A DNA stretch of 64,000 nucleotides from positions 2,046,001 through 2,110,000 of the forward strand of contig NC_015578.1 in the NCBI RefSeq assembly GCF_000214375.1, read 5' to 3'. A program made the translations under genes and the position numbers. Origin of the DNA: Treponema primitia ZAS-2 (GTDB lineage: Bacteria; Spirochaetota; Spirochaetia; Treponematales; Breznakiellaceae). Shown one piece after another: positions 18,165 through 46,047 of this stretch; position 1 is the first letter of the stretch, and each line of letters opens with the position of its first letter. The notes under the pieces are model-generated. The model did no database searches and was not told where the DNA came from. It worked only from the letters and a program-made list of their open reading frames with translations.

Positions 18165-18675
18165 AACTTGGCCCCTTCATTTTGCTCAATCCAGAGCCCT
18201 AATAGTTCTTTATGGCCGTCCAAACGTATCGCCAAGGCCAAATAAACGGATTTCTTGACTACCATAGCCCCATCACGGATGTTGACCCGCAGCGCATCCA
18301 GGAAAACTACCGGATAAAAGGGCTCAAGGGCCCGCCCCCGCCATTCGGCTGCCAGTTCCTTAACCTCATCGGTTACCCGGCTGATAAGCTCAGGCGAGAC
18401 GTCAACGGCGTAAATGTCCTTGAGGTGATCTTGAATCTGGCGGGTGGTCAGCCCCAGGGCGTACACCGAAAGGATTTTGTCATCAAATCCCCGAAACTCC
18501 CGCTGGTGCTTGGGTACAATTTGGGGTTCGAATGTCCCCTCCCGATCCCGGGGAACTTCGACCGGCATCGGCCCGTGGTCGGTCCTCAACTCTTTGGTGT
18601 TTTTGCCATTCCGGCGATTCGAGATTTGTTTTTCACCCTGGTCGTTTTTCTCATACCCAAGATGCTCGGTCAGTG

Positions 18676-18690
18676 CGAACCGAAGGTTCG
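18676..18690. repeat. Palindromic mini-insert in IS copy 3
   Basis: CGAACC-gaa-GGTTCG, identical to 8424-8438 in copy 1. Confidence 0.75.
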
Positions 18691-18868
18691 AAGCCTCCAT
18701 CGTCCGCTCCACCAGCGCTTTGGTCAGCTGTTTCATGATCCCTTCGGGCCCATAAAAATCGTCGGGTCCATGGTAGTCCTTCAGAATTGCATCAAGGACT
18801 TCTTTTGAAAAGGCCATACTTGCTCCTTCTAAGTAGTATGGCCGTTTACACTAATTTTGTTACAAGTC

Positions 18869-29935: not shown

Positions 29936-30000
29936 TTGACATATTCTTACTAATCCTATATTTTTAATCAATTCTTATTAAAAATAAGTGTTTTATAGGA
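29936..30000 (+). promoter_or_regulatory. Promoter 1 of the binding-protein/radical-SAM cluster, split operator
   Basis: TTGACA (29936-29941), 17 bases, TATTTT (29959-29964). TCCTATA (29954-29960) overlaps the -10, and its inverse TATAGGA follows at 29994-30000. Between them is a perfect 10-bp AT hairpin, TATTTTTAAT ... ATTAAAAATA (29959-29968/29977-29986). Same -35, spacing and arms as promoter 2 at 34621, where the arms are only 5 bases apart. Confidence 0.65.
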
Positions 30001-30036: not shown

Positions 30037-31044
30037 ATGAAAAAGAACCAACTGTTTCTGCTCCTGCTGGCCGGTATTTTCGCCGCTACGCTTATCCTGG
30101 GAGGATGCGCAAAAAAGGAGGCCCTGGCAGCCGGAGAGCAGACTATTGACAAGATCCGGCTGGGAGTCATGGCTGGGGCCACCCTGGTAGCAGATGTCGG
30201 GGTTGCCGATGGAATCTTCAAAAAACACGGCCTGGATGTGGAGATAACCACCTTTGCGGCGGGGATCAACACCATTGACGCCATTACCATAGGTCAGCTT
30301 GATATCGGCCTTGCGGCGGATTTCGCCATTCTTAACCGTATCGGAGGTACCCCTAACAGCCCCTTACGGATATTCACCGGGAACGCCAGCATACTCAACA
30401 ATTCCCAGCTTTTTTCACAGGACCCATCGGTAAAAACCCCGGCGGATCTGGCGGGTAAATCGGTATTGGTTCACCTGGGCACCGTGGGAGAATACTATTG
30501 GGCCCAGACTTGGACCGGTGTGGGGGTTCCTGAGTCACGGATCAAATACCTACCCGTGGACAGTCCCCTGGAAGCGGTGGCCGTACTCCAGACAGGAGCC
30601 GCCCAGGGCTATTATGCCAACGGAAAAACTGCGGAGGAAGTCAAAAAAATCGAGGGGATCCATGTGGTCGGGGAGTTGCACGACTATGTGCCTTCCACGG
30701 TGGGCATTCTTATCGCCAGCGAACAATTCCTGAGGGAACATCAGCGGGCGGTAGAAAAATACCTTAAGGCGCTGGATGAACTCTACGGTATTGTTGCAAA
30801 AGATCCCCAGCGGGCGGCGGAAATTTCCTATAAAACCAGTGGAGTCCCTGTGGAAATCGGGCTTCAAACACTTAAAACGCAAACTCTGGCAGTAGATGTC
30901 AACCAGGATACTTTTGACGCTTTGAAAGCCATGTACCAATGGCTTGAAGGGAAGGGATTGATCAAGTATCCCTACGATCTTTACAAGACCGTCGATACCA
31001 CAGCCCTCAAGGCGGCATTCCCCGACAGAGCGGTGTACAAATAG
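30037..31044 (+). CDS. THI5/SsuA-like ABC binding lipoprotein, paralogue 1
   Basis: 335 residues. Lipoprotein signal ends at LILGGC (Cys24). The mature part (GATLVADVGVADGIFKKHGL, FAAGINTIDAITIGQLDIGL, TPADLAGKSVLVHLGTVGEY) is an NMT1/THI5-like periplasmic binding protein of the NitT/TauT/SsuA type, the class that binds sulfonates, nitrate, aryl sulfates or pyrimidines. 'G-Q-L-D-I/V-G' is constant in all four paralogues here. A radical-SAM gene follows 51 bases later, and the ATPase and permease genes are in the same cluster. Ligand unknown. Confidence 0.85.
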   Translation: MKKNQLFLLLLAGIFAATLILGGCAKKEALAAGEQTIDKIRLGVMAGATLVADVGVADGIFKKHGLDVEITTFAAGINTIDAITIGQLDIGLAADFAILNRIGGTPNSPLRIFTGNASILNNSQLFSQDPSVKTPADLAGKSVLVHLGTVGEYYWAQTWTGVGVPESRIKYLPVDSPLEAVAVLQTGAAQGYYANGKTAEEVKKIEGIHVVGELHDYVPSTVGILIASEQFLREHQRAVEKYLKALDELYGIVAKDPQRAAEISYKTSGVPVEIGLQTLKTQTLAVDVNQDTFDALKAMYQWLEGKGLIKYPYDLYKTVDTTALKAAFPDRAVYK

Positions 31045-31095
31045 CAAAAATCCGTCCCGGCTATTGTCTGGGGCGGTAAAAAATGGAGGTATTTT

Positions 31096-32307
31096 ATGAG
31101 TGACCTGAAAGAAGCGCTGTACGATGAGCTCAAGCTCAAATTGGCCCTGGGGCTTGAGGGGGTTCGCTATGATGAGGGAGCCTTTGACAAGCTGATCCAG
31201 CAAAACGCCGCCCTGAAAAAGCGGGAGATTTGTACCTGGGACAAGGACCTGATTACCAAAAGAAGCTATGTCCTTCCTTATGCGGTAGTTCTGCCCCTGG
31301 GAATTCAAGCGGCAGTGGTAGCGGACAGACATTCTCCCTATAAAATCTCGGAGAAGGACGGGGTATTCAGTCTCTCCTACTTTGGGGAATGGATAGCAAA
31401 TCTGGACTTTCCCAAACCTCCGGCTTTCTATTCAAAGCTTACCAGTGATGGCACGCCCATGCGGGAAGTCGCTAACGATTCTTCCGGCGGCAGCCAGGAT
31501 AAAAGTATTGTAATCGGTTATAGCACCGAGTGTGCCCTCAAGGACAAAGGAAATTTTTGCCTTTTTTGCACCCAGGGGCAATCAAAGGGGCTCGATAAAA
31601 ACGCGGAGATTCCGCCCTTCCGCAATCCGCTTCAGATCGCCGAAACCGTGGAAGCGGCTTACAGCGAAGGTTTCAGCCACCTGACCATCACCGGAGGTTT
31701 TATCCCTGAGCGGCGGGAAGTGGAATACTACCTGGACGTTGCGGAAGCCGTCAAGGACAGATTGGGGGTGGATGACTTTAACGGTACCGCCTGTATTGGC
31801 GCCCCCCAGGACATTTACGTTATTGATAAGTACAAAGAAGCAGGGTTCAGTACCATTGCTTTCAATATTGAAGTATGGAATGAACAGTACTTTAATATCG
31901 TATGCCCAGGTAAGGTGGAGATGTGCGGTACCTTTGATCATTGGGTCAAAACCATAGAATACGCCATATCCGTATTTGGAAAGGGGAAGGTCCGCAGTAA
32001 TTTTGTTGTGGGTCTTCAGCCCAAGGATGTTCTCTTTCAGGGATTCGATTATCTTGCCTCCATCGGAGTGGTCACTGTCGCTTCCAGCTGGGTTCCCGTC
32101 ATCGGTTCCCCCCTGGAAGGGTTCCGTTCTCCCACGGTGGATTGGCACTGGGATGCCCAGCTCCAGCACGTAAGACTTCTGCAAAAGTACGGGCGTACAT
32201 ACGAGGAATTATTTAACGCCTCCCCGTCCAGAACCCTGACCGCAGAGATATACCAAATTGAAAGTGAGGAACTGCCCGCATTCAGGCAGCAGAAAATCGC
32301 CATATAG
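31096..32307 (+). CDS. Radical-SAM protein with CX8CX2C motif, paralogue 1
   Basis: 403 residues, cytosolic. Cys146, Cys155 and Cys158 (ECALKDKGNFCLFC) form a CX8CX2C cluster motif instead of the usual CX3CX2C. The SAM-binding 'GGF' (TITGGFIPERRE, 199-208) and a TIM-barrel-like order follow: FNGTACIGAPQD, FNIEVWNEQYF, CPGKVEMCG, GLQPKDVLF. The region resembles biotin-synthase-related/HmdB-like enzymes. The reaction is unknown. A GGAGG site precedes ATG 31096. It sits between binding proteins 1 and 2, so it may modify or cleave the imported compound. Confidence 0.78.
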   Translation: MSDLKEALYDELKLKLALGLEGVRYDEGAFDKLIQQNAALKKREICTWDKDLITKRSYVLPYAVVLPLGIQAAVVADRHSPYKISEKDGVFSLSYFGEWIANLDFPKPPAFYSKLTSDGTPMREVANDSSGGSQDKSIVIGYSTECALKDKGNFCLFCTQGQSKGLDKNAEIPPFRNPLQIAETVEAAYSEGFSHLTITGGFIPERREVEYYLDVAEAVKDRLGVDDFNGTACIGAPQDIYVIDKYKEAGFSTIAFNIEVWNEQYFNIVCPGKVEMCGTFDHWVKTIEYAISVFGKGKVRSNFVVGLQPKDVLFQGFDYLASIGVVTVASSWVPVIGSPLEGFRSPTVDWHWDAQLQHVRLLQKYGRTYEELFNASPSRTLTAEIYQIESEELPAFRQQKIAI

Positions 32308-32350
32308 AATTACAGGTACTGTAAAGACTGAACAAAAAAGGAAAGATAAA

Positions 32351-33358
32351 ATGAAACAAAAACGGGTATTATCGTTCTTGGCTGTCAGCTTTTTTGTTAT
32401 CCCACTTATTCTGGGGGGATGTTCAAAAAAAGAAACTCAGACTGCCGGAGGCCAGACTCTTGATAAAATACGTATCGGGGCTTCAGCCGGAGCTACTCTG
32501 GTGACAGATGTCGGGTTAGCCGATGAAATCTTCAAAAAGCACGGTCTGGATGCAGAAATTACCGCCTTTGCTGCAGGGATCAACACCATTGATGCTATTT
32601 CCATAGGCCAGCTTGACATCGGTATTGCAGCAGATTTCGCTATCTTTAACCGTATCGGAGGCGCCCAAAACAGCCCCCTACGAATATTTACCGGAAACGG
32701 CGACCTATTCAATAATTCTCAGCTTTTTTCGCCGGATCCTTCGGTAAAAACCCCGGCTGATTTAGCAGGTAAATCGGTGATAACCCACTTGGGGACCGTA
32801 GTAGAATACTATTATGCGCAGACCTTTGCCGCAGTAGGAGTCCCCGAATCAGAGGTCAAATACTTACCCGTGGAAAGTCCTCTGGAAGCACTAGCAGTAC
32901 TCCAGGCAGGAAATGCTCAGGGCTATTATGCCAATGGCAGGACTGCAGAATCAGTCAAGAAGATTGAGGGAATCCATGTGGTTGGAGAGCTGAAGAACTA
33001 TGTGCCTTCCACAGTACTCGTCTTTGTCTCCAGTGAACAGTTCCTCAAGGAACATCAGCGGGTAGTAGAAAAATTTCTTGGGGCTGTAGAGGAAATTTAC
33101 GATGTTATTGAAAAAGACCGCCAGAGAGCGGCGGAAATTACCTTTAAAGCCAGTGGCGCCCCCGTAGATCTTACCCTTCTAAATCTTCAGCTTCAAACCA
33201 GGAGATTAGACGTTAGCCAAAGTACTTTTGATGCTTTAAAAAGTATGTACCAATGGCTCGAAGGAAAAGGACTCATCAAGTATCCATTTGATATTTATAA
33301 ATTTGTCGATACTACGGCTCTAAAGACGGTTTTCCCCGACAGGGGTAATTATAAATAG
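32351..33358 (+). CDS. THI5/SsuA-like ABC binding lipoprotein, paralogue 2
   Basis: 335 residues from ATG 32351 (GGAAAG upstream). A longer frame overlaps the previous gene and is not used. The lipobox is LILGGC (Cys24). Very similar to paralogue 1 (GINTIDAISIGQLDIGI, LAGKSVITHLGTVVEY, YYANGRTAESVKKIEGIHVV). Units 30037-32307 and 32351-34600 are a tandem duplication of binding protein plus radical-SAM gene. Differences cluster in the middle of the protein, which may alter the ligand. Confidence 0.85.
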   Translation: MKQKRVLSFLAVSFFVIPLILGGCSKKETQTAGGQTLDKIRIGASAGATLVTDVGLADEIFKKHGLDAEITAFAAGINTIDAISIGQLDIGIAADFAIFNRIGGAQNSPLRIFTGNGDLFNNSQLFSPDPSVKTPADLAGKSVITHLGTVVEYYYAQTFAAVGVPESEVKYLPVESPLEALAVLQAGNAQGYYANGRTAESVKKIEGIHVVGELKNYVPSTVLVFVSSEQFLKEHQRVVEKFLGAVEEIYDVIEKDRQRAAEITFKASGAPVDLTLLNLQLQTRRLDVSQSTFDALKSMYQWLEGKGLIKYPFDIYKFVDTTALKTVFPDRGNYK

Positions 33359-33388
33359 TGGCACTGTAAAAAAATATGGAGGTATATT

Positions 33389-34600
33389 GTGAGTGATTTG
33401 AAAGAAGCTTTGTACGACGAGTTAAAACTGAAATTTGCCCTGAGCCTTGAGGGGGTTCGCTATGATGAGGGGACCTTTGACAAGCTAATCGGGCAAAATG
33501 CTTATCTCAAAAAAAGGGAAATTTGTACTTGGGATAAGGACCTTGTTACTAAAAAGAGTTATGTACTTCCTTACGCTGTTACCCTGCCATTGGGATTTCA
33601 GGTCGGAGTTGTGACAGATAAACATTCTCCCTATAAAATTTCCGAAAAGGATGGGGTATTCAGCCTTTCCTACTTTGAAGAATGGATAGCAAATCTGAAC
33701 TTCCCCAAGGCTCCGGCCTACTATTCAAAATTCACCAGCGATGGAACCCCCATGCGGGAAGTCGCGGGGGATACTTCCGGGGGAAGTGAAGATAAGGCTA
33801 TTGCCATAGCCTACAGCACCGAATGTGCCCTCAAAGAAAAGGGGAAATTTTGCCTTTTTTGTACCTTTGGACAATCAAAGGGTCTTGATAAAAATGAGGA
33901 AATTCCGCCCTTCCGTAACCCGCTCCAGATTGCGGAAACTGTGGAAGCTGCTTACAGCGAAGGCTTCCGTCACCTGACCGTTACCGGCGGCTTTATCCCT
34001 GAGCGGCGAGAAGTGGAATACTATCTGGATGTCGCAGAGGCCATCAAGGACAGGCTGGGAGTTGATGACTTTAACGGTACTGCTTGTATCGGCGCTCCTC
34101 AGGACATTCACGTTATTGACAAGTACAAAGAAGCGGGGTTCAGTACCATCGCATTTAATATCGAAGTATGGACCAAACAGTATTTCGATTTGGTGTGCCC
34201 GGGAAAAGTGGAAATGTGCGGCGATTTTGATCACTGGATCAAGACTATTGAGTATGCTATTTCCGTGTTTGGCAAGGGCAAGGTTCGCAGTTGTTTTGTG
34301 GTTGGCCTCCAACCAAAGGATGTTCTTTTTCAGGGACTTGAGTATTTAGCCTCCATTGGCGTAGTCACTGCAGCTTCCAGCTGGGTGCCCGCCATTGGCT
34401 CCCCCCTGGAAGGGTTCCGTTCCCCCACCGTGGACTGGCACTGGGATATCCAGCTCCAGCACACAAAACTTTTGCAGAAATACGGACGTACCTATGAAGA
34501 ATTATTCAGCGCCAATGCAGCCAGATCCTTAACCGCCGAGATGTATCAAATAGAAAGTGAAGATCTACCCATATTCAGGCAGCAGAAGATTGCTATTTAG
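33389..34600 (+). CDS. Radical-SAM protein with CX8CX2C motif, paralogue 2
   Basis: 403 residues from GTG 33389, with GGAGG upstream. Cys146, Cys155 and Cys158 sit at the same positions as in paralogue 1, with CALKEKGKFCLFC. The body is highly similar (TVTGGFIPERRE, FNIEVWTKQYFDLVCPGK). Product of the tandem duplication. Three near-equal copies of an enzyme suggest either gene dosage or a specialised substrate for each copy. Confidence 0.78.
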   Translation: MSDLKEALYDELKLKFALSLEGVRYDEGTFDKLIGQNAYLKKREICTWDKDLVTKKSYVLPYAVTLPLGFQVGVVTDKHSPYKISEKDGVFSLSYFEEWIANLNFPKAPAYYSKFTSDGTPMREVAGDTSGGSEDKAIAIAYSTECALKEKGKFCLFCTFGQSKGLDKNEEIPPFRNPLQIAETVEAAYSEGFRHLTVTGGFIPERREVEYYLDVAEAIKDRLGVDDFNGTACIGAPQDIHVIDKYKEAGFSTIAFNIEVWTKQYFDLVCPGKVEMCGDFDHWIKTIEYAISVFGKGKVRSCFVVGLQPKDVLFQGLEYLASIGVVTAASSWVPAIGSPLEGFRSPTVDWHWDIQLQHTKLLQKYGRTYEELFSANAARSLTAEMYQIESEDLPIFRQQKIAI

Positions 34601-34620
34601 TAGTTTGCATTAATATGGTA

Positions 34621-34657
34621 TTGACAAATAATTATTTTTCCTATATGTTTTATAGGA
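34621..34657 (+). promoter_or_regulatory. Promoter 2 of the cluster, with palindromic operator
   Basis: TTGACA (34621-34626), 17 bases, TATGTT (34644-34649). The perfect palindrome TCCTATA-tgttt-TATAGGA (34639-34657) covers the -10 and start site, the position of a repressor site. It is homologous to 29936-30000. No regulator gene is adjacent. Confidence 0.7.
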
Positions 34658-34682
34658 TATAATTTTCAAAATGGAGGATATT

Positions 34683-35891
34683 ATGAGTGAATTAAAACAG
34701 GCTTTGTATGATGAATTAAAGCTCAAGCTTGCCCTGGGGCTTGAGGGGGTACGTTACGATTCGGGGGTCTTCGACAAGTTGATCCAGCAAAACGCCGCCC
34801 TGAAAAAACGGGAAATTTGCGCCATTGACAAGGAACTTATCACCACAAAGAGTTACGCCCTTCCCTATGCCTTTACCCTTCCCCTGGGAAGCCAGGTGGC
34901 GGTGGTGGCGGACCGGAATTCACCTTATAAAATTTCTGAAAAAGATGGCGTTTTCAGTCTTTCCTATTTTGGGGAGTGGATTACCAATATCGGCTTCCCT
35001 ACCCCGCCCGCTTATTATTCAAAACTTACCAAAGATGGAACCAGTATGCGGGAAGTCGGCCTGGATCTTTCCGGTGGCAGCAGGGACAGAGCTATTGCCA
35101 TCAATTATAGCACCGAATGTGTGCTTAAAGAAAAAGGGAATGTTTGCCTCTTTTGCGTCCGGGGTAAACAAAACGGCCTTGAACAGCACGAGGAGATTCC
35201 ACCATTCCGAAACCCCCTGCAGATAGCGGAAACTGTGGAAGCGGCATACCAGGAAGGGTTCAGCCATCTTACAATCACCGGGGGATTTATCCCTGAACGG
35301 CGGGAAGTGGAATACTATATTGATGTGGCGGAAACCATTAAGGACCGCTTGGGCGTAGATGACTTTAACGGTACTGCTTGTATAGGCGCACCACAGGACA
35401 TTCATGTTATTGATAAATACAAAGAAGCGGGATTCCGTACCATTGCCTTCAACATTGAAGTTTGGAATCAGCAATACTTTGATATCGTATGCCCGGGAAA
35501 AGTGGAAATGTGCGGTAGTTTTGATCATTGGGTAAAGACCATTGAATATGCTATTTCTGTTTTCGGCAAGGGTAAAGTCCGCTGCAATTTTGTAGTAGGT
35601 CTGCAGCCTAAAGATGTGCTTTTTGAAGGGCTGGAATACTTTACTTCCATCGGTGTAGTAACCGTGGCATCTCCCTGGATTCCTGGCTTGGGCTCTCCCC
35701 TGGAAGGGTTCCGTTCTCCCACGGTGGATTGGCATTGGGATGTCCAAATTCAACATGCCCAACTTTTGCGGAAACACGGCCGTACTTATGAAGAAATTTT
35801 CGATGCCTGCCCTGCCAGAACCTTTGTGCATGATGTTTATCAAATTGAAAGTGAGGAACTGCCCGCATTCGGGCAGAGAAAAGCTGTATGA
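34683..35891 (+). CDS. Radical-SAM protein with CX8CX2C motif, paralogue 3
   Basis: 402 residues from ATG 34683. An ATG 12 bases earlier overlaps the ribosome site GGAGG and is rejected. Cys146, Cys155 and Cys158 (CVLKEKGNVCLFC) are again conserved, while residues 47-53 and the C-terminus differ from the other two. First gene of the second transcription unit; its stop overlaps the ATG of the ABC ATPase (ATGA), a tight link between this enzyme and the transporter. Confidence 0.78.
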   Translation: MSELKQALYDELKLKLALGLEGVRYDSGVFDKLIQQNAALKKREICAIDKELITTKSYALPYAFTLPLGSQVAVVADRNSPYKISEKDGVFSLSYFGEWITNIGFPTPPAYYSKLTKDGTSMREVGLDLSGGSRDRAIAINYSTECVLKEKGNVCLFCVRGKQNGLEQHEEIPPFRNPLQIAETVEAAYQEGFSHLTITGGFIPERREVEYYIDVAETIKDRLGVDDFNGTACIGAPQDIHVIDKYKEAGFRTIAFNIEVWNQQYFDIVCPGKVEMCGSFDHWVKTIEYAISVFGKGKVRCNFVVGLQPKDVLFEGLEYFTSIGVVTVASPWIPGLGSPLEGFRSPTVDWHWDVQIQHAQLLRKHGRTYEEIFDACPARTFVHDVYQIESEELPAFGQRKAV

Positions 35892-36724
35892 GTGACGAAT
35901 CTATTATTAAAATCAAGGGATTATCAAAAAGTTACGATATTGTGGAGTCCGGGAAAAAACCGGCCAGGCCGGAAAAAAAGACAGAAGAAAAGGTTGACAG
36001 CAAAAAAGTTGAACCGGTTTTTGTACTGGACGATATCAACCTGGATATTAAAGAAGGAGAATTCCATGTCTTTCTGGGGTGGAGCGGATGCGGTAAATCT
36101 ACCCTACTTAATATCATTGCGGGGTTCGTGGAAAAAACCTCAGGCCAGGTACTGGTGGACAATGAAGAGGTCACTAAACCGGGTTTTGAACGGGGGGTGG
36201 TATTTCAAAATGCCGATTCAGCGATCTTCTCCTGGATTCCGGTCTGGAAAAATGTGGAATACGGCCTAAAGATCCGCGGGGTCCCCTCGGAAGAGCGGAA
36301 AGAAACCGTCCGCCGCTGCATTTCCCTGGTCGGCCTGGAGGGTCACGAAAAAAAATTCCCCCATGAGCTTTCCGGTGGAATGAAACAACGGGTACAGATT
36401 GCCCGGAGCATGGCGAATAATCCAAAAATTCTTTTGATGGATGAACCCTTCGGCGCCCTGGATGCCCAGACCCGCCGGCTCATGCAAAACGAGTTGATAA
36501 AAATTTGGCAAAAAACCCGCAAGACCATTCTTTTTGTTACCCATGATATTCAGGAAGCGGTATACCTGGGACAAAAGATCAGCATCCTGTCCCGTTCCCC
36601 AAATGCCCGGATAATGAAAACCCTGGATGTAATCATTCCCTATAACCGAAATCTTTCCAGCCCCGATGCGGGCAGTTTGGTTCAGAGCATACAGGGTTTC
36701 TTTGACATTGAGTACGTCATCTAA
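35888..36724 (+). CDS. ABC transporter ATPase, NitT/TauT type
   Basis: 278 residues. Walker A GWSGCGKST (64-72), signature LSGGMKQR, Walker B LLMDEPFGALD and the switch His in VTHD are present, so it is active. It is a SsuB/TauB-like ATPase except for an extra charged stretch at about 19-43 (ESGKKPARPEKKTEEKVDSK) inserted before the first beta strand returns. Drives uptake through the permease encoded next, probably with all four binding proteins. Confidence 0.9.
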   Translation: MSDESIIKIKGLSKSYDIVESGKKPARPEKKTEEKVDSKKVEPVFVLDDINLDIKEGEFHVFLGWSGCGKSTLLNIIAGFVEKTSGQVLVDNEEVTKPGFERGVVFQNADSAIFSWIPVWKNVEYGLKIRGVPSEERKETVRRCISLVGLEGHEKKFPHELSGGMKQRVQIARSMANNPKILLMDEPFGALDAQTRRLMQNELIKIWQKTRKTILFVTHDIQEAVYLGQKISILSRSPNARIMKTLDVIIPYNRNLSSPDAGSLVQSIQGFFDIEYVI

Positions 36725-36733
36725 GTAAGGAGA

Positions 36734-37507
36734 ATGGACATGAAAAAAATAATAGATTTTTTAACGATCAAAGGTTTTGTCACCTGGGCTTTATTACTGG
36801 CCATTTGGCAGCTTGGGGCCATCCTGAATCCCCCTGAATTCCTGCCTGGCCCAATCCAAACAATTATCGGGGGAGCAGAAATAGTACGCAACGGTATGCT
36901 CGCCCAGTATGTGGGAATAAGCTTCATGAGAATCTTTACCGGGTGGTCCCTGGGCATCCTGGCGGCGGTTCCTATCGGCCTTTTAATCGGCCAGTTTGCC
37001 ACCATCAGGCGGATATTTGAGCCCTTTATCAATTTTTTCCGATTTGTACCGGCCATCGGATTCCTGACCCTCTTTCTGATGTGGTTCGGTGTTGGAGAAG
37101 AATCAAAAGTTGCCATCATCATATATGCCACATCATTTCCCATCATCATCAATACTATTGCCGGAGTTATAGGTATCAATAATACTACCATCCAGGTAGC
37201 TCTATCTCAGGGAGCTTCCCCTGCACAGATATTTTTTACTGTTACCATTCCTGCGTCGATTCCCTATATATTTACAGGGGTCAGGCTCGGCTTAAGCGGC
37301 GCTATTATTTCCATCGTAGCCGCAGAAATGCTGGCAGCTCAAAAAGGTATAGGCTACATGATATACACTTCCAGACTGTATTTCAGGACTGACTGGATAT
37401 TTGTAGGCATCCTTACCCTGGGCTTGACTGGTTACATTTCAGACCGGCTGCTGCGTCTTTTTGGCAGAACTGTTCTTAAACGCTTCGGTGTCACAGACAG
37501 AAAATAG
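36734..37507 (+). CDS. ABC transporter permease, NitT/TauT type
   Basis: 257 residues, about 6 membrane segments. The EAA loop (VALSQGASPAQIFFTVTIPASIPYIFTG) contacts the ATPase. Typical SsuC/TauC size. ATG 36734 follows AAGGAG; a second in-frame ATG at 36740 is possible. It is the only permease in the 12-kb cluster, so the four binding proteins must share it or act as receptors. Confidence 0.88.
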   Translation: MDMKKIIDFLTIKGFVTWALLLAIWQLGAILNPPEFLPGPIQTIIGGAEIVRNGMLAQYVGISFMRIFTGWSLGILAAVPIGLLIGQFATIRRIFEPFINFFRFVPAIGFLTLFLMWFGVGEESKVAIIIYATSFPIIINTIAGVIGINNTTIQVALSQGASPAQIFFTVTIPASIPYIFTGVRLGLSGAIISIVAAEMLAAQKGIGYMIYTSRLYFRTDWIFVGILTLGLTGYISDRLLRLFGRTVLKRFGVTDRK

Positions 37508-37544
37508 ATATAGGGTATATTAGTTTTATTAAAAGGAGTAAAAT

Positions 37545-38576
37545 ATGACAGAAAAAGTAAAGGTAACCCGGAGTAACCTTGTATTGACAGGTTTATTGGT
37601 CGCAGTACTGGTATTTACAGGATGCGCAAAAAAGAGACCCCAGGCAGCGGATAGTCCAAACGACAGCGCCAATACTATTGACAAAATCAGGCTAGGGATC
37701 ATGGCTTCCGGTACCCTGGTACCCGATGTGGGGAATTATTACGGCATATTTGCAAAAAACAATCTTGAAGTGGAAACCGTAACCTTTGCGGCGGGAATTA
37801 ACAGCATTGATGCCATTTCCATCGGCCAGCTTGACGTGGGTTTTGCGGCAGATTTCGCTATCCTTAACCGGATTGGGGGTACCCAAAACAGCCCCCTCAG
37901 AATTTTCACCGGATATTCAGTTAACCTGAACACCTACGAACTCTACTCCAAGGACCCGGCCATCAAAACACCGGCTGATCTGGCAGGAAAATCGGTAGTA
38001 ACCCTATTGGGCACAGTTTATGAATACTATTACGCCAAAACCTGGGCTGCCCTGGGGATTCCAGAGTCCCAGATTAAGTACCTACCCGTGGATAGCGCCC
38101 TGGAAGCAGCTGCAATCATCCAGGCAGGTAGCGGTCAGGCTTTTTATGCCAATGGCCGGGCCGCAGAAGCCCTCTTGGCCATAGACGGGGTCCGATCCAT
38201 AGGAAAACTCTCTGACTATGTAGAATCTACGGTAGCAATTTTTATTGCCAGCGATCGCTATCTCAATGAACATTCCCGGGCAATAGAAAAATTTCTAAAA
38301 TCCGTAGACGAAATTTATTCAATTGTTCTTAAGGATCAGGAGACTGCCGCAGATATAGTGTATAAAGCCAGTTCGATACCGAGAGAGTTGACGCTGCTCA
38401 ACTTTAAAACAATTGATTATAAAATCGAATTTGATCAGCAATTCTACGATGCCATGAACAATGTCCTTCAATGGGCTAATGAGAAGGGGGTCATCAAATA
38501 TCCCTACGATCTGCATAATTATGTCAATGTAGATTCCCTTAAAAAGGTTTTCCCCGGACGGGGAAATTTTAAATAA
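37545..38576 (+). CDS. THI5/SsuA-like ABC binding lipoprotein, paralogue 3
   Basis: 343 residues; AAGGAG and ATG 37545. Lipobox VFTGC (Cys27). Same fold as the others (GTLVPDVGNYYGIFAKNNL, GINSIDAISIGQLDVGF) but about half the residues differ. 37 bases after the permease gene. Confidence 0.85.
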   Translation: MTEKVKVTRSNLVLTGLLVAVLVFTGCAKKRPQAADSPNDSANTIDKIRLGIMASGTLVPDVGNYYGIFAKNNLEVETVTFAAGINSIDAISIGQLDVGFAADFAILNRIGGTQNSPLRIFTGYSVNLNTYELYSKDPAIKTPADLAGKSVVTLLGTVYEYYYAKTWAALGIPESQIKYLPVDSALEAAAIIQAGSGQAFYANGRAAEALLAIDGVRSIGKLSDYVESTVAIFIASDRYLNEHSRAIEKFLKSVDEIYSIVLKDQETAADIVYKASSIPRELTLLNFKTIDYKIEFDQQFYDAMNNVLQWANEKGVIKYPYDLHNYVNVDSLKKVFPGRGNFK

Positions 38577-38589
38577 CAGGAGTAAAAAA

Positions 38590-39621
38590 ATTAAAAACAG
38601 GATAAAAAAAACCCAGGGAGACTTGGTATTAGCCAGTTTATTAGTCGCAGCTTTGGTCCTTACAGGGTGCACAAAAAAGGAATCCCGGACCACGGATCAA
38701 AACGGCGCTGAAACCATCGATAAAATCCGGCTGGGGGTTCCTACGGATTTCTTAACCGAGTATGTTGCTTACATAGGTCTATCGGAGGGTATATTTGCCC
38801 GGAATAATCTGGAAGTTGAAATCACATCCTTTTCCGCAGGCATCAATACTATTGATGCCGTAACCATAGGGCAAATTGATATAGGATCCGGCGCCGACTT
38901 TGCGGTTCTTAACCGACTTGGGGGTTCCCAAAACAGTCCCCTTAGAATTTTTTCCGGGGTTTGTGAATTGCTTAATAATTCAGAACTTTATACCCGGGAC
39001 CCTTCTATTAAATCCCCAGAGGATCTTGCAGGAAAATCAATGATAGTCATGCTGGGCACCGTTGGAGAATATTATAATTCAAAAACTTTTGCCTCCGTCG
39101 GAGTACCTCTGTCGAGTGTTAAATTCTTACCTATAGAAGGAAACATAGAAGGGGTGGCTTTGATCCAGAATGGGAATGCTCATGCTATGTATGCTAATGG
39201 CCGGGCCGCCGAATCTCTTAAGAAAATTGAGGGTATCCATACCATAGCAAACCTGAGCACCTATGTACCATCTACGGTATGTATTACCATTGCCTCAGAA
39301 CAATTTCTTAAAGAACACCCACAGGCAATAGAAAAATTCATAAAGTCAACTAACGAGGTTTATGAACTTATACGAAGCAATCCTCAAAAAGCAGCAGAGA
39401 TCGTCAACAAAGGTAATGGAGCGCCGATCGATCAAATTTTGGTTAATTTTGAAATTTATGTAGCTACTGTCGATTTTGATCAAAAATTCTATGATGCAAT
39501 GGAAAGCCTTTACCAATGGATGGAATCATCCGGGATTATCAAATATCCCTATGATCTGCACAATTATGTCAATACCAATTCCCTTAAAAAGGTGTTCCCC
39601 GGACAGGGAAATTTTAAATAA
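38590..39621 (+). CDS. THI5/SsuA-like ABC binding lipoprotein, paralogue 4; likely ATT start
   Basis: If read from ATT 38590 the protein has 343 residues, the same length as paralogue 3, and the lipobox Cys falls at position 27 in both. GGAG (38579-38582) lies 7 bases before the ATT, as before the ATG of paralogue 3. The only ordinary start that keeps part of a signal is TTG 38623, which gives a signal with no basic N-terminus (LVLASLLVAALVLTGC) and a poorly placed ribosome site. ATT is a rare but real start codon (infC). The ATG may instead have mutated, leaving the gene weakly expressed. Downstream: GINTIDAVTIGQIDIGS. Confidence 0.75.
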   Translation: MKNRIKKTQGDLVLASLLVAALVLTGCTKKESRTTDQNGAETIDKIRLGVPTDFLTEYVAYIGLSEGIFARNNLEVEITSFSAGINTIDAVTIGQIDIGSGADFAVLNRLGGSQNSPLRIFSGVCELLNNSELYTRDPSIKSPEDLAGKSMIVMLGTVGEYYNSKTFASVGVPLSSVKFLPIEGNIEGVALIQNGNAHAMYANGRAAESLKKIEGIHTIANLSTYVPSTVCITIASEQFLKEHPQAIEKFIKSTNEVYELIRSNPQKAAEIVNKGNGAPIDQILVNFEIYVATVDFDQKFYDAMESLYQWMESSGIIKYPYDLHNYVNTNSLKKVFPGQGNFK

Positions 39622-39634
39622 CAGGAGTATTATC

Positions 39635-41131
39635 ATGGGACATCCGACAATTTATCCCACTGGTGTTACGGTTTACAGCAAAGATGCGGCCTGGAACGGT
39701 TACACTGTTTTTACCGCCCCCCAGGGAGTACTGCTTATCGATCAAAACGGCCGGGAAGTCCGGTTGTGGAAGGGGCTTTTTGGGGAACCCGCACGGATAC
39801 TGCCCGGTGGCTTTGCCCTGGGCAGTACCGGAAAGAGAAGCGCCCAGGCATCCGCTTCTGACAACCTGGATTTAGTCCAGGTGGACTGGAACGGCAATAT
39901 TGTCTGGAGCTTTAACCACAATGAATATGTGGAAGATCCCGGCCAGGTTCCCCGCTGGATTGCCCGACAGCATCACGATTACCAGCGGGAGGGTTCTTCG
40001 GTTGGCTATTATGCCCCCGGGTCGGAGCCCAGAACCGATGGGGGAAACACCCTGATCCTGGTAAACCGGAATGTTTATAATCCTGCGGTATCCGGTAAAA
40101 CCCTGCTGGACAACCGCATTATCGAAGTAAACTGGGAAGGGAAGATACTGTGGGAATGGAATGCCGCCGACCACTTTGAGGAATTCGGTTTTAGCGAAGC
40201 GGCAAAAAACGCTATCTATCGTCTTCCTTCAGAAAAAACCATAGAGGGCGGCCAGGGGGACTGGATCCACATTAACGCTATCTCTACCCTGGGGCCCAAT
40301 AAATGGTACGATGGAGGGGACCAGCGCTTCCACCCGGATAATATTATCTTTGACGGACGGAACGTCAATATTCTGGGCATCATCAGCCGGAAGACGGGAA
40401 AAATCGTCTGGAAACTGGGCCCTGATTTTGACCATACCCATCTTGGGCAGATCATAGGGCAGCATCATTTTCATTTGATCCCCAAGGGCCTGCCCGGTGA
40501 AGGAAACTTCCTGGTTTTTGATAACGGCGGCTGGGCCGGGTACGGCGTACCCAGCGGGGTGGCCCCCTACGGCGCAGCAACAGAACGGCGAGATTATTCC
40601 CGGATTCTGGAATTCAACCCCCAGACCCTTGAGGTGGAATGGCAGTATACCCCCGCCGAGGCTGGGTTTATTATCCCCCTGGATGCCTACAAATTGTACA
40701 GTCCCTATATCAGTTCCGCTCAGAGGCTTCCCAACGGCAATACCCTGATTACCGAAGGTTCCAACGGCCGGATTTTTGAAATTACCCGGGACTACAAAAC
40801 TGCGTGGGAATATATCAACCCCTACTCCAGGCTTCAGGGAAGACTGCAAGGAAACCTGGTCTACCGGGCCTACCGTGTTCCCTACGAGTGGGTACCCCAG
40901 CTAGACCATCCGGTAGAAACTGATGTGGCTCCTCTCAACATTTCTACCTTCCGGGTTCCCGGCGCAGCCGCCGGACCTGGGGGCAAAGTTACAAAGATTG
41001 ATGGGATTGACCCCCAGGCAACAAAGGTCCTGGAAGACCCCTACGGGGCAACCATCAGCGGAAGCAGCGACGAAGCTTCCAATTTCTGTGTAGTTAACTC
41101 GGGTTCTAAAAACAGGGAAAGTAATTCTTAA
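39635..41131 (+). CDS. Arylsulfotransferase-like beta-propeller protein, copy 1
   Basis: 498 residues from ATG 39635 (CAGGAG upstream); a longer frame overlaps the previous gene. Repeated 'V-W-NG-x-I-L/V-W' blades (VQVDWNGNIVWSFNHNEYVE, IEVNWEGKILWEWN) and NGNTLITEGSNGRIFEI are those of the arylsulfotransferase (ASST) propeller. The His-rich motifs ARQHHDYQREGS and GQHHFHLIPKG are candidates for the catalytic His that carries the sulfuryl group. It has no signal peptide, whereas classic ASST is periplasmic with a disulfide, so it is cytosolic or only ASST-like. The C-terminus is extended by about 30 residues versus copy 2. Confidence 0.78.
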   Translation: MGHPTIYPTGVTVYSKDAAWNGYTVFTAPQGVLLIDQNGREVRLWKGLFGEPARILPGGFALGSTGKRSAQASASDNLDLVQVDWNGNIVWSFNHNEYVEDPGQVPRWIARQHHDYQREGSSVGYYAPGSEPRTDGGNTLILVNRNVYNPAVSGKTLLDNRIIEVNWEGKILWEWNAADHFEEFGFSEAAKNAIYRLPSEKTIEGGQGDWIHINAISTLGPNKWYDGGDQRFHPDNIIFDGRNVNILGIISRKTGKIVWKLGPDFDHTHLGQIIGQHHFHLIPKGLPGEGNFLVFDNGGWAGYGVPSGVAPYGAATERRDYSRILEFNPQTLEVEWQYTPAEAGFIIPLDAYKLYSPYISSAQRLPNGNTLITEGSNGRIFEITRDYKTAWEYINPYSRLQGRLQGNLVYRAYRVPYEWVPQLDHPVETDVAPLNISTFRVPGAAAGPGGKVTKIDGIDPQATKVLEDPYGATISGSSDEASNFCVVNSGSKNRESNS

Positions 41132-41142
41132 GGAGGCTTATC

Positions 41143-42540
41143 ATGGGATTTCCCCGAATATATCCATCGGGAACGACTGTATACAATGCGGAACGCTCAT
41201 GGAGCGGCTATACCATATTGCCCACTGCCAAAGGCGCCCTGCTCATCGACATGCGGGGTAATGAGGTACAACTTTGGGCGGGCCTGGCAGGCTTTCCCAA
41301 TAAAATACTTCCCGGGGGCTTTGTATTAGGTTCCTCCGGATCCCGGCATCCCCGGTACGGCTACCAGGATCAGCTGGACCTACTCCAGGTGGACTGGGAC
41401 GGAAAGGTAGTCTGGAAATATGACCAGAATGAAACGGTGGAAGACCCGGGCTTGAAGTCAAAACAGGTTGCCCGGCAGCACCACGATTTTCAGCGGGAAG
41501 GTTCCACCACGGGTTACTATGCACCGGGCTTTACCCCAAAAACCGATAGCGGCAATACCCTGCTCCTGGTTCATAAAAACGTGGAGAATAAAGATATTTC
41601 CGATAAACCCCTGCTGGATGATCGGTTTATCGAAGTAGACTGGTCAGGAAAGCTGCTCTGGGAATGGCTGCCCAATGAACATTTTGACGAATTGGGTTTT
41701 GACGAGACCGCTCGGAACCTCCTGTACCGGGACCCGGATATTGTAACCAGCGGCCGGGGTGACTGGCTCCATATCAATTCCCTTTCTACCCTGGGGCCCA
41801 ACAAGTGGTACGATGCGGGGGATCAACGGTTCCATCCGGACAACCTGATCTGGGACTCCCGGAATGCCAATATCCTGGCCATTACGGATAAAAAAACCGG
41901 AAAAATTGTCTGGCGCATAGGGCCGGATTTTGGCCTGACCGAAGAACTGCGGAACCTGGGCTGGATTATTGGCCAGCATCATTTCCACCTTATCCCCCGG
42001 GGCCTGCCCGGTGAGGGAAACTTGCTGGTCTTTGACAACGGCGGCTGGGCAGGCTACGGCGCCCCCTCGGGAACATCCACCTATGGGCTTAACGATAAAC
42101 ACCGGGACTACTCCCGGGTTATCGAATTTAACCCCCTGACTCTCAAAATTGAATGGGAATATACCGCTGAAAAAGCAGGCTATACCCACAGCCTGGAAAA
42201 CTACCGATTCTACAGTCCCTATATCAGTTCCGCCCAGCGGCTTCCCAACGGTAACACCCTGATAACAGAAGGCTCCGACGGCCGGCTCCTGGAGGTGACC
42301 CCGGAAAAACAAACCGTCTGGGAATATCTGAACCCATACTATTACCATGCCCTGGGAGGAATTCTCAACATGGTGTACCGGGCTTACCGGGTCCCCTATG
42401 ACTGGATTCCCCAGCTTAAGGTCCCCAGCGAAGGGTCCATTCAGGCGCCGGATGTAAAAACCTTCCGGGTCCCCGGATCGGTGATCGGAGCGTCCCCGGA
42501 AAATATTGTCAATGTTGCAGGCAGATCGCCCCTTGCCTAA
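41143..42540 (+). CDS. Arylsulfotransferase-like beta-propeller protein, copy 2
   Basis: 465 residues, AAGGAGG before ATG 41143, 11 bases after copy 1. Aligned with copy 1 throughout (IYPSGTTVYNAERSWSGYTI, ARQHHDFQREGSTTGYYAPG, GQHHFHLIPRGLPGEGNLL), again without a signal peptide. Classical enzymes move a sulfate from an aryl sulfate to a phenol without PAPS. With a SsuA-type transporter and radical-SAM enzymes in one cluster, uptake and breakdown of aromatic sulfates or sulfonates is a reasonable hypothesis. End of the operon; a terminator follows. Confidence 0.78.
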   Translation: MGFPRIYPSGTTVYNAERSWSGYTILPTAKGALLIDMRGNEVQLWAGLAGFPNKILPGGFVLGSSGSRHPRYGYQDQLDLLQVDWDGKVVWKYDQNETVEDPGLKSKQVARQHHDFQREGSTTGYYAPGFTPKTDSGNTLLLVHKNVENKDISDKPLLDDRFIEVDWSGKLLWEWLPNEHFDELGFDETARNLLYRDPDIVTSGRGDWLHINSLSTLGPNKWYDAGDQRFHPDNLIWDSRNANILAITDKKTGKIVWRIGPDFGLTEELRNLGWIIGQHHFHLIPRGLPGEGNLLVFDNGGWAGYGAPSGTSTYGLNDKHRDYSRVIEFNPLTLKIEWEYTAEKAGYTHSLENYRFYSPYISSAQRLPNGNTLITEGSDGRLLEVTPEKQTVWEYLNPYYYHALGGILNMVYRAYRVPYDWIPQLKVPSEGSIQAPDVKTFRVPGSVIGASPENIVNVAGRSPLA

Positions 42541-42642: not shown

Positions 42643-44208
42643 ATGAAATCTATGTCCATGTCTCTCAGAGCCGCCCTGCTGATGGTTCTGGCCTTTGGGC
42701 TGCTGGCTGCCCCGGCTTTTGCGAAAGGCGCCCAGGCGGCGGCCCCGACAAATGATACTTTTATCTACGGCCTTGAGGGGGATCCCGGTAATGATATTAA
42801 CACCATTACCACCTCGGGCCGCTACGACCTTACCGAGGAGCGGTTGCTCTATTCGCCCTTGCTGAACTATTTCGGCCCCACTGACATTACCTGGCTTTTG
42901 GCGGAGAGCGCCGAGGCTTCGGCAGACAATAAGGTGGTTACCTTCCACCTCCGCCGGGGCGTAACCTGGTCTGACGGGGTGCCCTTTACAGCGGATGATG
43001 TGATCTTTACCTACGGACATATCATCAAGGCGGAATATTCCAATGGCCGGGAAGGGCTGGTGTATAACGGCGCCCCTGTGGAATTTGTTAAACTGGATGA
43101 CTATACGGTGGAATTCCATTTCCCCGTTTTTGTGAGCAATATTTTGGAGCTGGCCGGGAACGAACACTTCGTTATGCCCAAGCATATTTATGACGGGGAT
43201 GCCACCCTGGACAATAACCCCAAAAACCAACATCCCGTGGGGACAGGCCCCTATAAGCTGACCGAATATGTGGCGGGCCAGCATGCACGGTTTGTTGCCA
43301 ATGACAGCTACTTCGGGGGGAAGCCCAAGATTCCGAACCTGGTGCTCCAGTTTGTGTCGGACCTTAACGCCGCCAAACTGGCCCTCAGGCGGGGGGAAAT
43401 TCATGCCCTGGTATTGGCCAATGCGGACGCCGATTCCTTCAAGGGCTCCAATGTGACTATCCATGCCTATCCGGAAGACCGGGTGGGGTACCTGATCTTT
43501 AACCTGCTTTCGCCCCGGGTACAGGACATCAACCTCCGGAAGGCGGTTTTCTTTGCCCTGAACCGTGAGGAAATGAATATCGGCGCATACCTTTCGGCGG
43601 AATACTTTACCAATGCTGTTTCATTCCTGCCCTACTCAAATCCCTTCTATACGGATAAGCTGGAAAAATACGATCAGAACCTCCAAACCGCCCGGGATTT
43701 TCTGGCCAAGGTATCCAATCCCCCTACCCTGCGGCTTGCGTATACCGCAAACAATGTACAGCAGGAAGTGCAGGCCATGGTAGCCCAGCAGAACCTCAAG
43801 GCCATCGGCATTACCCTGGAACTGCTGGCCATTGACAGTACCTCTTTGAACAACAAGAACAGGGATGGTACCACCGATTATGACGCATACCTGGGGGGCT
43901 ACATCATGGGGATCGATCCTTCCAGCTACGCCTCCCTCTTTACATCCACCGGGGCATATAACTACGGACGGGTGGCCGACAAAACCCTGGACGATTTCTT
44001 TTCTGCGGGCTCCGTAGAGCCAAATGCCGCTAAGCGCTTGCAGATCTACCAGGATGCCCAGCGCCGGCTGGCGGATTTGGCCTACCAGTACCCCATCGTG
44101 ACCAACAAGCGGCTTTTGGGGGTAACCAATAATCTTGGGGGTGTGGAAGATGCGAGGCTGATCCCAATCTACACCTTCCAGGATATGTCCAAGCTTTATT
44201 TTAAATAA
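42643..44208 (+). CDS. Peptide/nickel-type ABC binding protein (SBP family 5)
   Basis: 521 residues. Sec signal peptide (SLRAALLMVLAFGLLAAPAFA) without a lipobox, so soluble in the periplasm, unlike the lipoproteins upstream. Family 5 signature FHLRRGVTWSDGVPFTADDVIFTY, then GTGPYKLTEY. Binds peptides or a similar ligand for the permease encoded next. First of a complete five-gene Dpp/Opp set; GGAG before ATG 42643. Confidence 0.88.
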   Translation: MKSMSMSLRAALLMVLAFGLLAAPAFAKGAQAAAPTNDTFIYGLEGDPGNDINTITTSGRYDLTEERLLYSPLLNYFGPTDITWLLAESAEASADNKVVTFHLRRGVTWSDGVPFTADDVIFTYGHIIKAEYSNGREGLVYNGAPVEFVKLDDYTVEFHFPVFVSNILELAGNEHFVMPKHIYDGDATLDNNPKNQHPVGTGPYKLTEYVAGQHARFVANDSYFGGKPKIPNLVLQFVSDLNAAKLALRRGEIHALVLANADADSFKGSNVTIHAYPEDRVGYLIFNLLSPRVQDINLRKAVFFALNREEMNIGAYLSAEYFTNAVSFLPYSNPFYTDKLEKYDQNLQTARDFLAKVSNPPTLRLAYTANNVQQEVQAMVAQQNLKAIGITLELLAIDSTSLNNKNRDGTTDYDAYLGGYIMGIDPSSYASLFTSTGAYNYGRVADKTLDDFFSAGSVEPNAAKRLQIYQDAQRRLADLAYQYPIVTNKRLLGVTNNLGGVEDARLIPIYTFQDMSKLYFK

Positions 44209-44229
44209 TCCGGGACAGGGGGCGCAGTA

Positions 44230-45183
44230 ATGCTGTGGTATATAGGCAAACGTATTTTACAGGCCGTACCTATGCTATTTATTATCTGCGTTCTCTGTTT
44301 CACCCTGATCCAGCTTGCCCCCTTTGACGCCATTGATACTATTACCAGGCCCGATATGGCGCCTGAAGTGGTGGCGGCCCTCAAGGTGCGGTACGGGCTG
44401 GATCAGAGCGCCCCTGTCCAGTTCATAACCTGGGTAAAGCGGATGTTCACCGGGGACCTGGGGTATTCCATTGTGAACCACCAAAGCGTGGCCTACGGCC
44501 TCTTGTCCCGGCTGCCCAATACAGTATTGCTGGTATTGCCCAGTTATACCCTGGCGCTGATCCTCTCCATGGTGCTGGGACTTTTGGCAGGGGCCGGCCA
44601 TGGGGGTAAGTTTGACCGGGTGGTGGACACCCTCTGTTCCATCGGCATGGCGACCCCGACTTTTTGGGTGGCCATGATGATCCTCTATGTTTTCGCCTAC
44701 GCCCTGAATCTCTTTCCCATTCTGGGGATGCATACCCTGGGGCATGAATCAAGTTTTCAGGACCTTCTGCGCCACATGGTCCTGCCCTGTACGGTGCTGA
44801 CCGCAGCGTTTCTGCCCGAAAATATCCGGTATGTACGCTCCTCTACCATCACCCAGTACCAGGAAGATTATGTAACCGTACAGCGGGCCTTTGGCGCACG
44901 CCGGGGGCAGCTACTCTTTGGGCATGTGATGAAAAACGTGCTGTTTCCGGTGATTACCCGGGTGGGGATGGCCCTACCCATGCTGGTGACCGGGGCCTTT
45001 GTCACTGAATCAATTTTTAGCTGGCCTGGGGTGGGAACCTATTTTCTCACCGCCATCCAGGGCTTTGATTATCCTGTTATAATGGTAGTATTACTGTTTT
45101 CTTCGGTAGCAGTTATTCTGGGAAATCTTTTGGCGGATATTTGTTACTGCCTCCTTGATCCGCGTATCAAAAGTTTTAAGTGA
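44230..45183 (+). CDS. ABC transporter permease, DppB/OppB type
   Basis: 317 residues, 6 membrane segments, the large periplasmic loop after the first segment typical of DppB, and the EAA loop (VTVQRAFGARRGQLLFGHVMKNV). Begins LWYIGKRILQAVPMLFIICVL. Pairs with the DppC-type protein encoded 9 bases later. Confidence 0.9.
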   Translation: MLWYIGKRILQAVPMLFIICVLCFTLIQLAPFDAIDTITRPDMAPEVVAALKVRYGLDQSAPVQFITWVKRMFTGDLGYSIVNHQSVAYGLLSRLPNTVLLVLPSYTLALILSMVLGLLAGAGHGGKFDRVVDTLCSIGMATPTFWVAMMILYVFAYALNLFPILGMHTLGHESSFQDLLRHMVLPCTVLTAAFLPENIRYVRSSTITQYQEDYVTVQRAFGARRGQLLFGHVMKNVLFPVITRVGMALPMLVTGAFVTESIFSWPGVGTYFLTAIQGFDYPVIMVVLLFSSVAVILGNLLADICYCLLDPRIKSFK

Positions 45184-45192
45184 GGCAATAGC

Positions 45193-46047
45193 TTGGCATC
45201 CGTGGAAAACCGGCAGCTACAGCAGTTTCGCGGGGAATTTAGGCGAAACCGCAGCCTGGTTCCGGCCGCAGCATTTCTGCTCTTTGTGCTGCTTATTTCG
45301 GTCTTTTCATTCCTTTCGCCCTACGATCCCGACACTATCGATGTTACCCGCCGCTTTGAGCAACCCAGCGGTGATCACTGGTTTGGGACTGACGATCTCG
45401 GCCGGGATTACCTGACCCGGATCCTCTATGGAGGACGGATATCCCTCCTGGTGGGGGTGGTAGCCATGCTGATTTCCACCGCCATCGGGGTGACCGTGGG
45501 TATTATCAGCGGCTATGCCGGGGGGGTGGTGGATAACCTTCTGATGCGCTTTATTGATATACTTTCCTCCATCCCCTGGATGATCCTGGTAACCGTGATC
45601 AGCATCTACCTTAAACCGGGTCTGGAGGCTATCATCCTGGTTATAGGGCTCTTTACCTGGATGTCCATAGCGCGGCTCGTGCGGGCAGAAACACTGAGCA
45701 TCAAGGAACGGGAATACGTGCTCTATGCCCGGGCCATCCACCAGAAGCCCCTGCGGATTATCCTGCGCCACATCCTGCCCGGGGCGCTGCCTACCATCGT
45801 TGTGGCGGCAACCACGGGGATCGCCAACGCCATCATGATAGAATCATCCTTAAGCTTCCTGGGCCTGGGGGTGCAGCAGCCCGTGTCCTCCTGGGGAAGT
45901 ATGCTCAACCGCGCCCAGGCTGTGCTGGGCAGGGCCCCCTATATGGCGATTATCCCGGGACTGATGATTATCCTTACGGTCTATTCTTTTAACACCATCG
46001 GCAGTGTTTTCCGTATACTCGCCGAGCCAAGGTCGTACCGGCGATGA
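45193..46047 (+). CDS. ABC transporter permease, DppC/OppC type
   Basis: 284 residues from TTG 45193 (GAGG upstream). N-terminal 'FRRNRSLVPAAAFLLFVLLI' with the DppC 'HWFGTDDLGRDYLTRILYGGRISL' signature, and the EAA loop (YVLYARAIHQKPLRIILRHILPGA). Its stop overlaps the next ATG (ATGA). Confidence 0.9.
   Translation: MASVENRQLQQFRGEFRRNRSLVPAAAFLLFVLLISVFSFLSPYDPDTIDVTRRFEQPSGDHWFGTDDLGRDYLTRILYGGRISLLVGVVAMLISTAIGVTVGIISGYAGGVVDNLLMRFIDILSSIPWMILVTVISIYLKPGLEAIILVIGLFTWMSIARLVRAETLSIKEREYVLYARAIHQKPLRIILRHILPGALPTIVVAATTGIANAIMIESSLSFLGLGVQQPVSSWGSMLNRAQAVLGRAPYMAIIPGLMIILTVYSFNTIGSVFRILAEPRSYRR

Follow-up and report, generated by a model that had tools for sequence, protein, structure and literature searches.

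What purpose is served by a run of genes in which four receptors, three radical S-adenosylmethionine (SAM) proteins, a single ATP-binding cassette (ABC) importer and two arylsulfotransferase-like proteins (ASSTs) are encoded side by side? The question is raised by positions 30037-42540 (+ strand) of a 64,000-nucleotide stretch from the genome of the termite-gut-type spirochaete Treponema primitia ZAS-2, hereafter the window (C1:2046001-2110000 of a single-contig genome of 4,059,867 bp; G000 among the compared genomes, which carry G numbers, the loci taken from them carrying L numbers). With a probability of roughly three in four, the cluster is an anaerobic sulfur-scavenging operon for sulfonates and/or sulfate esters, with the radical SAM proteins (rSAMs) acting together with a nitrogenase-like IsrHDK enzyme and with an ASST branch for sulfate esters. 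The four receptors would supply one SsuABC-like importer with organosulfur anions, namely sulfonates and/or sulfate esters, the three rSAMs and the distantly encoded IsrHDK would release sulfite in the cytosol, and the sulfite reductase of the cell would take sulfite to sulfide and then to cysteine and methionine; the two cytosolic ASSTs would strip imported (aryl) sulfate esters of their sulfuryl group and hand it on to an acceptor. A preliminary description of the locus had found no named pathway of this composition; the closest one is isethionate reductase (Isr), IsrBHDK with the importer SsuCAB, and an HDK counterpart is encoded elsewhere in the genome. The cluster is best read as an expanded, split variant of Isr and Ssu to which an ASST branch has been added; no description of this branch was found, and a literature search for the rSAM family NF045502 and for a cluster of ASST, rSAM and ABC genes yielded no paper.

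The genes follow each other in the order SBP1-rSAM1-SBP2-rSAM2-rSAM3-ATPase-permease-SBP3-SBP4-ASST1-ASST2. SBP1 (30037-31044; lipobox LILGGC; PF09084, 6.8e-13) is an NMT1/SsuA-like lipoprotein receptor, as are SBP2 (32351-33358; 2.9e-12), SBP3 (37545-38576; 1.1e-10) and SBP4 (38623-39621, start codon uncertain; 1.3e-15), each with a lipobox of its own. An ABC ATPase (35888-36724; PF00005, 3.1e-32) and a permease (36734-37507; PF00528, 9.9e-24), both of Tau/Ssu/Sao type, stand in the middle of the run, and with this one permease the importer is complete. The permease was missing from the gene list that headed the preliminary description; the four receptors, three rSAM paralogues, ATPase and two ASSTs listed there were all recovered in place on the + strand. 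The tandem duplication of a receptor-rSAM unit that it proposed is borne out by 78% DNA identity between the first two units over 2241 aligned bases (71% and 86% amino acid identity for the SBP1/SBP2 and rSAM1/rSAM2 pairs, respectively), and the proposed coupling of the third rSAM gene to the ATPase gene by a 4-bp ATGA overlap (35888-35891), the rSAM3 stop ending at 35891 and the ATPase starting at 35888. The starts of SBP2 and ASST1 lie near 32351 and 39635, longer TTG open reading frames having been dropped. ATPase, permease and receptors belong to the same ABC subfamily as the sulfonate importers SsuABC and TauABC, from which the cluster differs by its four receptors and the lack of a SsuD/TauD oxygenase. 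A Sao transport system was considered and rejected, curated cut-offs being unreached for SaoX (45/300 bits), SaoA (240/360) and SaoP (148/295).

rSAM1 (31096-32307), rSAM2 (33389-34600) and rSAM3 (34683-35891) match the NCBIfam variant radical SAM model NF045502 with 398, 406 and 395 bits, far above its cut-off of 125, and stay below that of TIGR04043 (MSMEG_0568; 89-97 bits, cut-off 303.7). The three cysteines of the CX8CX2C motif pointed out in the preliminary description are invariant in 35 of 35 homologues and thus conserved far beyond chance; together with the TIM-barrel fold of an AlphaFold2 model of rSAM2 (pLDDT 77.6) they place these proteins in the radical SAM superfamily. The nearest folds of this model are LipA (lipoyl synthase), HydE and BioB (Z 15-18.6), a likeness of fold only. 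Searches of the PDB with phmmer gave nothing useful for the rSAM or for ASST2.

The comparison with Isr is carried by genetics in another organism and by genome content in the present one. In Rhodobacter capsulatus, the radical SAM protein IsrB, IsrHDK and SsuCAB are each needed for the anaerobic use of isethionate sulfur, and IsrBHDK together with SsuCAB transfer this use to R. sphaeroides (Morimoto et al., 2024; PMC11423573). Sulfite release by Isr was inferred from islAB complementation, and the enzyme was reported in phyla including Spirochaetes and Bacillota (printed Bacillata; PMC11423573). The P-cluster region has one conserved cysteine in IsrD, where the other positions are Arg and Pro/Ser, and three in IsrK (PMC11423573). 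Alignment reveals the same fingerprint, one cysteine in D and three in K, in the HDK proteins considered here. The single Isr-type HDK set of the genome (L174, C1 about 28.5-32.2 kb) directly follows a sulfate importer and cysHDN and adjoins sulfite reductase. An rSAM, HDK proteins with the same cysteine fingerprint, a SsuABC-type importer and a setting of anaerobic sulfur assimilation are common to both systems; the genome differs from that of R. capsulatus in having six rSAMs per HDK set and an HDK set remote from the cluster beside cysHDN, and the cluster in having four receptors on one importer, two ASSTs and an added Dpp importer. A threonine-synthase-like gene (NF006050) stands beside sulfur or Isr clusters in three genomes (L174 161-1363, L109 14732-15946, L135 6333).

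Core rSAM and IsrK also go together in their distribution among genomes. Among 391 Clostridia-class genomes, a core rSAM (at least 390 bits) and IsrK (at least 590 bits, the next best scoring 382) occur in the same five, and among 59 spirochaete relatives IsrK (>600 bits) occurs in three, exactly those with an intact core rSAM; in a fourth relative, whose genome is fragmented, pieces of rSAM genes stand at the ends of contigs. The curated NCBIfam model independently retrieved six further rSAM genomes, and in each of them HDK genes lie in the stretch that has the rSAM. An rSAM gene lies inside the HDK cluster in G034, G004 and the Clostridia, an arrangement not found in the genome of the window. 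On this indirect basis of co-occurrence, the rSAMs of the window may be functional counterparts of R. capsulatus IsrB (WP_013067946.1).

Methylthio-alkane reductase MarBHDK (PMC12552129; PDB 9FMG) likewise combines a nitrogenase-like enzyme and an rSAM for sulfur salvage, and of the solved structures matched by IsrD from G034, 9FMG ranks within the first two. The Mar-like loci differ (Treponema saccharophilum L177, Chlorohelix L178): their D protein has three cysteines, and their rSAM is NifB-like and has no relation to the variant rSAM. Mar in place of Isr was rejected on the single cysteine in D here and on the variant rSAM profile, which misses MarB-like proteins. A plasmid search for Isr-type HDK returned only other nitrogenase-family and Mar-like loci.

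Evidence for a role in sulfur acquisition also comes from the homologous loci, read in 14 genomes including that of the window. Their recurring content is NifH/D/K-like proteins, MetK, core rSAMs in one or several copies, Ssu/Tau-type ABC sets and often an ASST, nucleosidase/phosphorylase-family and PNPOx-like genes; common companions are MetY, sulfite reductase, a HesA-type adenylyltransferase and a sulfate importer. Most similar to the window is a Clostridia metagenome-assembled genome (G245, L074), in which SBP-rSAM-rSAM-permease-ATPase-(rSAM fragment)-ASST form one stretch. RNA control elements were identified with Rfam. SAM riboswitches of the S-box class precede rSAM-ATPase-permease-SBP-ASST in G563 (L103/L104; RF00162, 95.8 bits), SBP-ATPase-permease-ASST in G769 (L140) and permease-ATPase-SBP-ASST in G581 (L201), and in the same three genomes S-boxes also lie upstream of IsrH/MetK/rSAM operons. 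In G765, T-boxes with a UGC (Cys) specifier, read by eye in the specifier loop after GAAG, precede rSAM-SBP-ATPase-permease and a permease-ATPase...rSAM-MetK-NifHDK operon, and in G581 one precedes the sulfate importer. SAM riboswitches report low SAM and cysteine T-boxes report uncharged tRNA-Cys; in the homologous operons, rSAM, importer and ASST genes are therefore tied to sulfur amino acid starvation. These elements, the sulfur loci of the homologues and the genetically proven relative support the sulfur outline of the preliminary hypothesis, namely that sulfonates or sulfate esters are taken up and processed by radical chemistry while ASSTs work on sulfuryl groups. Just 3' of the S-box-controlled ABC-ASST operon of G581, an azaaromatic (yjdF) riboswitch is found (L201 10247-10351).

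The other part of that hypothesis, an aromatic catabolism suggested by PaaK/Ior genes on both flanks, is not supported, because such genes are absent from every homologous locus. Aromatic substrates may still be proposed by analogy, the sole argument being what characterised aryl sulfotransferases (ASTs) accept.

The explanation that survives best beside the preferred one concerns the task of the rSAMs. They could be maturases that prepare IsrHDK, like NifB in cluster building or IslB in activation, and never touch the sulfonate. The radical SAM proteins NifB and MarB work with other nitrogenase-like enzymes, the rSAM2 model matches the fold of NifB among others (Z about 15) and the role of IsrB was left open (PMC11423573), but this explanation is doubtful in view of the number and placement of the genes. 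Seven NF045502-type proteins are encoded in the genome, three in the window, three at 3.637-3.641 Mb and one more distant (L010), which makes six core rSAMs for one IsrHDK; in the 14 genomes, 38 core rSAMs stand against about one HDK set per genome. An ABC gene lies within three same-strand genes for 29 of these 38, an HDK gene near only 14. MetK and a nucleosidase/phosphorylase-family gene recur, which fits a stoichiometric use of SAM, and IsrD lacks the ligands of FeMo-co (PMC11423573). Since there are many rSAMs per HDK set, mostly close to importers, with several old subtypes within single genomes in the rSAM tree and with recurring MetK and nucleosidase/phosphorylase genes, a catalytic rSAM with substrate specificity is favoured. 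The rSAMs may act directly on the substrate, and each receptor/rSAM pair may serve one substrate.

The second rSAM locus of the genome (L008 11376-19949 and L009 322-1908; C1 3.636-3.647 Mb) is an operon-like run in which three rSAMs stand behind a Dpp-type importer and are followed by a gene of the PNP_UDP phosphorylase family; Dpp and rSAM genes are neighbours in G786 (L144) too, where a SAM riboswitch accompanies them. The distant rSAM (B type; L010 6947-11603, C1 about 107-112 kb) has its own Ssu-type ABC genes and a PNPOx-like flavin-protein gene, a combination that recurs in L033, L110 and L150. In L150 (G611), the B-type rSAM is accompanied by MetK, MetY, sulfite reductase and HesA without Isr-type HDK. 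The B-type neighbourhood is perhaps a separate organosulfur system.

It can also be imagined that the rSAMs work independently of IsrHDK, that each of them cleaves one particular organosulfur compound after its import, and that the co-occurrence reflects a shared sulfur-starvation regulon only. The separation of the window cluster from IsrHDK by about 2 Mb would suit this explanation, as would the more distant rSAM type found with ABC and sulfur genes in the absence of IsrK (L150, G611). Presence and absence of the core rSAM nevertheless track those of IsrK, and B, H and DK are all essential in R. capsulatus (PMC11423573), so that such independence is unlikely.

Turning to the sulfate ester branch of the scavenging operon, ASST1 (39635-41131; PF05935, 2.2e-20) and ASST2 (41143-42540; 1e-24; PDB 9kf4 sulfotransferase profile match, E 5.5e-11) are 61% identical, and their family membership is indicated by PF05935 scores of 73.4 and 87.7 bits (gathering cut-off 24.2) and by the catalytic His, Asn and Arg residues. 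In the numbering of ASST2 (H210-x-N212, R240, H279), N212 and H279 are conserved in 14 of 14 homologues and H210 and R240 in 13 of 14. PF05935 is shared with E. coli AssT (EcAST; PDB 3ELQ), and the HxN, R and H positions match His356-x-Asn358, Arg374 and His436 of EcAST (PMC13426309), a mapping made by motif without direct alignment, the similarity being at the profile level only. An AlphaFold2 prediction of an ASST from two sequences reached a pLDDT of 36. The ASSTs of the window (about 465-498 amino acids) differ from EcAST in lacking a signal peptide, as judged by inspection, and in being co-transcribed with an importer. Importer-ASST operons without an rSAM are found in L073, L077, L201, L203 and L128, the last on a Paenibacillus plasmid with a 62% identical ASST. 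An ASST (>600 bits) is encoded in 7 of the 391 Clostridia-class genomes and in four of the five that have Isr. On a Cetobacterium somerae plasmid (L129 7824-13711), a 58% identical ASST stands between a FAD-dependent oxidoreductase and an SLC13 permease, which is another transporter pairing for a cytosolic ASST.

These proteins could instead sulfate phenols in the cell, for detoxification or as a product, with the importer supplying the donor and no sulfur being acquired. In all the biochemical work on ASTs, the acceptors shown are indeed phenols or alcohols (PMC13426309, PMC11576661). Against phenol sulfation, three ABC-ASST operons stand behind SAM riboswitches and the one in L203, devoid of any rSAM, adjoins MetY- and HesA-type sulfur genes, which makes it quite improbable here. 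The receptors could, lastly, import a ligand without sulfur (an HMP/THI5-type pyrimidine, nitrate or bicarbonate) with the rSAM in cofactor synthesis, as the Pfam name NMT1/THI5 and a distant similarity of the rSAM to CofH, MqnC and BioB might suggest, but thiamine/pyrimidine or nitrate uptake is contradicted by the SAM/Cys RNA control and sulfur neighbours of the homologous loci, none of the loci read had a recognisable thiamine gene, and this alternative deserves hardly any credence.

Several observations weigh against a sulfur-scavenging operon that works with IsrHDK. The two lie apart in the genome, as mentioned above, and the Rfam scan found no riboswitch or T-box in the window nor any element in L008, so far as control in this genome is concerned. 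Regarding the ligand, no receptor or ABC subunit reaches any of the curated equivalog cut-offs (SsuA_fam 67-75/163.5 bits, 70.9 for SBP1; TauB, PRK11248, 241/357; TauC 132/342). The naive hypergeometric probability of the rSAM/IsrK overlap in the Clostridia-class genomes (1e-11) is only indicative, because the IsrK profile was partly built from the genomes that score highest and related genomes are not independent. The best Swiss-Prot match of IsrB is BciD (PMC11423573). Concerning the ASSTs, aryl sulfates are the only established donors of characterised ASTs, for which no natural role is known (PMC13426309); according to a 2026 review, bacterial aryl sulfotransferases have no identified natural substrate.

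A more far-reaching version of the same reading, which can be put forward tentatively, is a modular, O2-independent desulfonation in which one shared IsrHDK would be combined with interchangeable, substrate-specific rSAMs, each with its own receptor, and a cytosolic ASST branch would release the sulfur of sulfate esters under methionine/cysteine starvation. If true, sulfur release from imported sulfate esters would be the first natural role for arylsulfotransferases. How anaerobes draw sulfur from sulfonates and sulfate esters is understood only in part, the 2024 account of Isr having covered a single substrate in a single phototroph. In the gut, both sulfonates and aryl sulfates could plausibly provide anaerobes with sulfur. 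Riboswitch-controlled operons that combine importer and enzyme make both the role of the radical SAM protein and the natural substrate of the ASTs directly testable.

The cluster probably extends beyond ASST2. A Dpp/Opp-type ABC importer (SBP_bac_5, two permeases and two ATPases; 42643-47992, + strand) starts 103 bp past it, and can be regarded as a probable extension of the system because the same importer type adjoins rSAM genes in L008/L009 and in G786 (L144). As to origin, the GC content is 44-47% at 32-40 kb compared with 54-58% in the nearer flanks, an ASST is found among the 59 spirochaete relatives only in the genome of the window and one other, and in the rSAM tree the window copies cluster, with full support, with Clostridia proteins and one second-locus protein; taken together, these features suggest that the cluster was acquired from Clostridia.

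Promoter-like sites are found 5' of SBP1 and, internally, 5' of rSAM3, and are no commoner than in shuffled sequences. In the gap between rSAM2 and rSAM3, a palindrome CCTATATGTTTTATAGGA (34640-34657) stands beside a TTGACA promoter-like site, and similar half-sites, CCTATA...TATAGGAATT, stand beside another 5' of SBP1 (29955-29999). The palindrome, which did not reach significance in shuffling, may be an operator; no copy turned up around the other sulfur loci of the genome and, at 3 mismatches, it is not rarer than expected by chance. Farther upstream in the window, three near-identical transposase-like open reading frames on the - strand (7336-8565, 16643-17857 and 18134-18817) flank a low-GC stretch (about 31%) at 10-16 kb.

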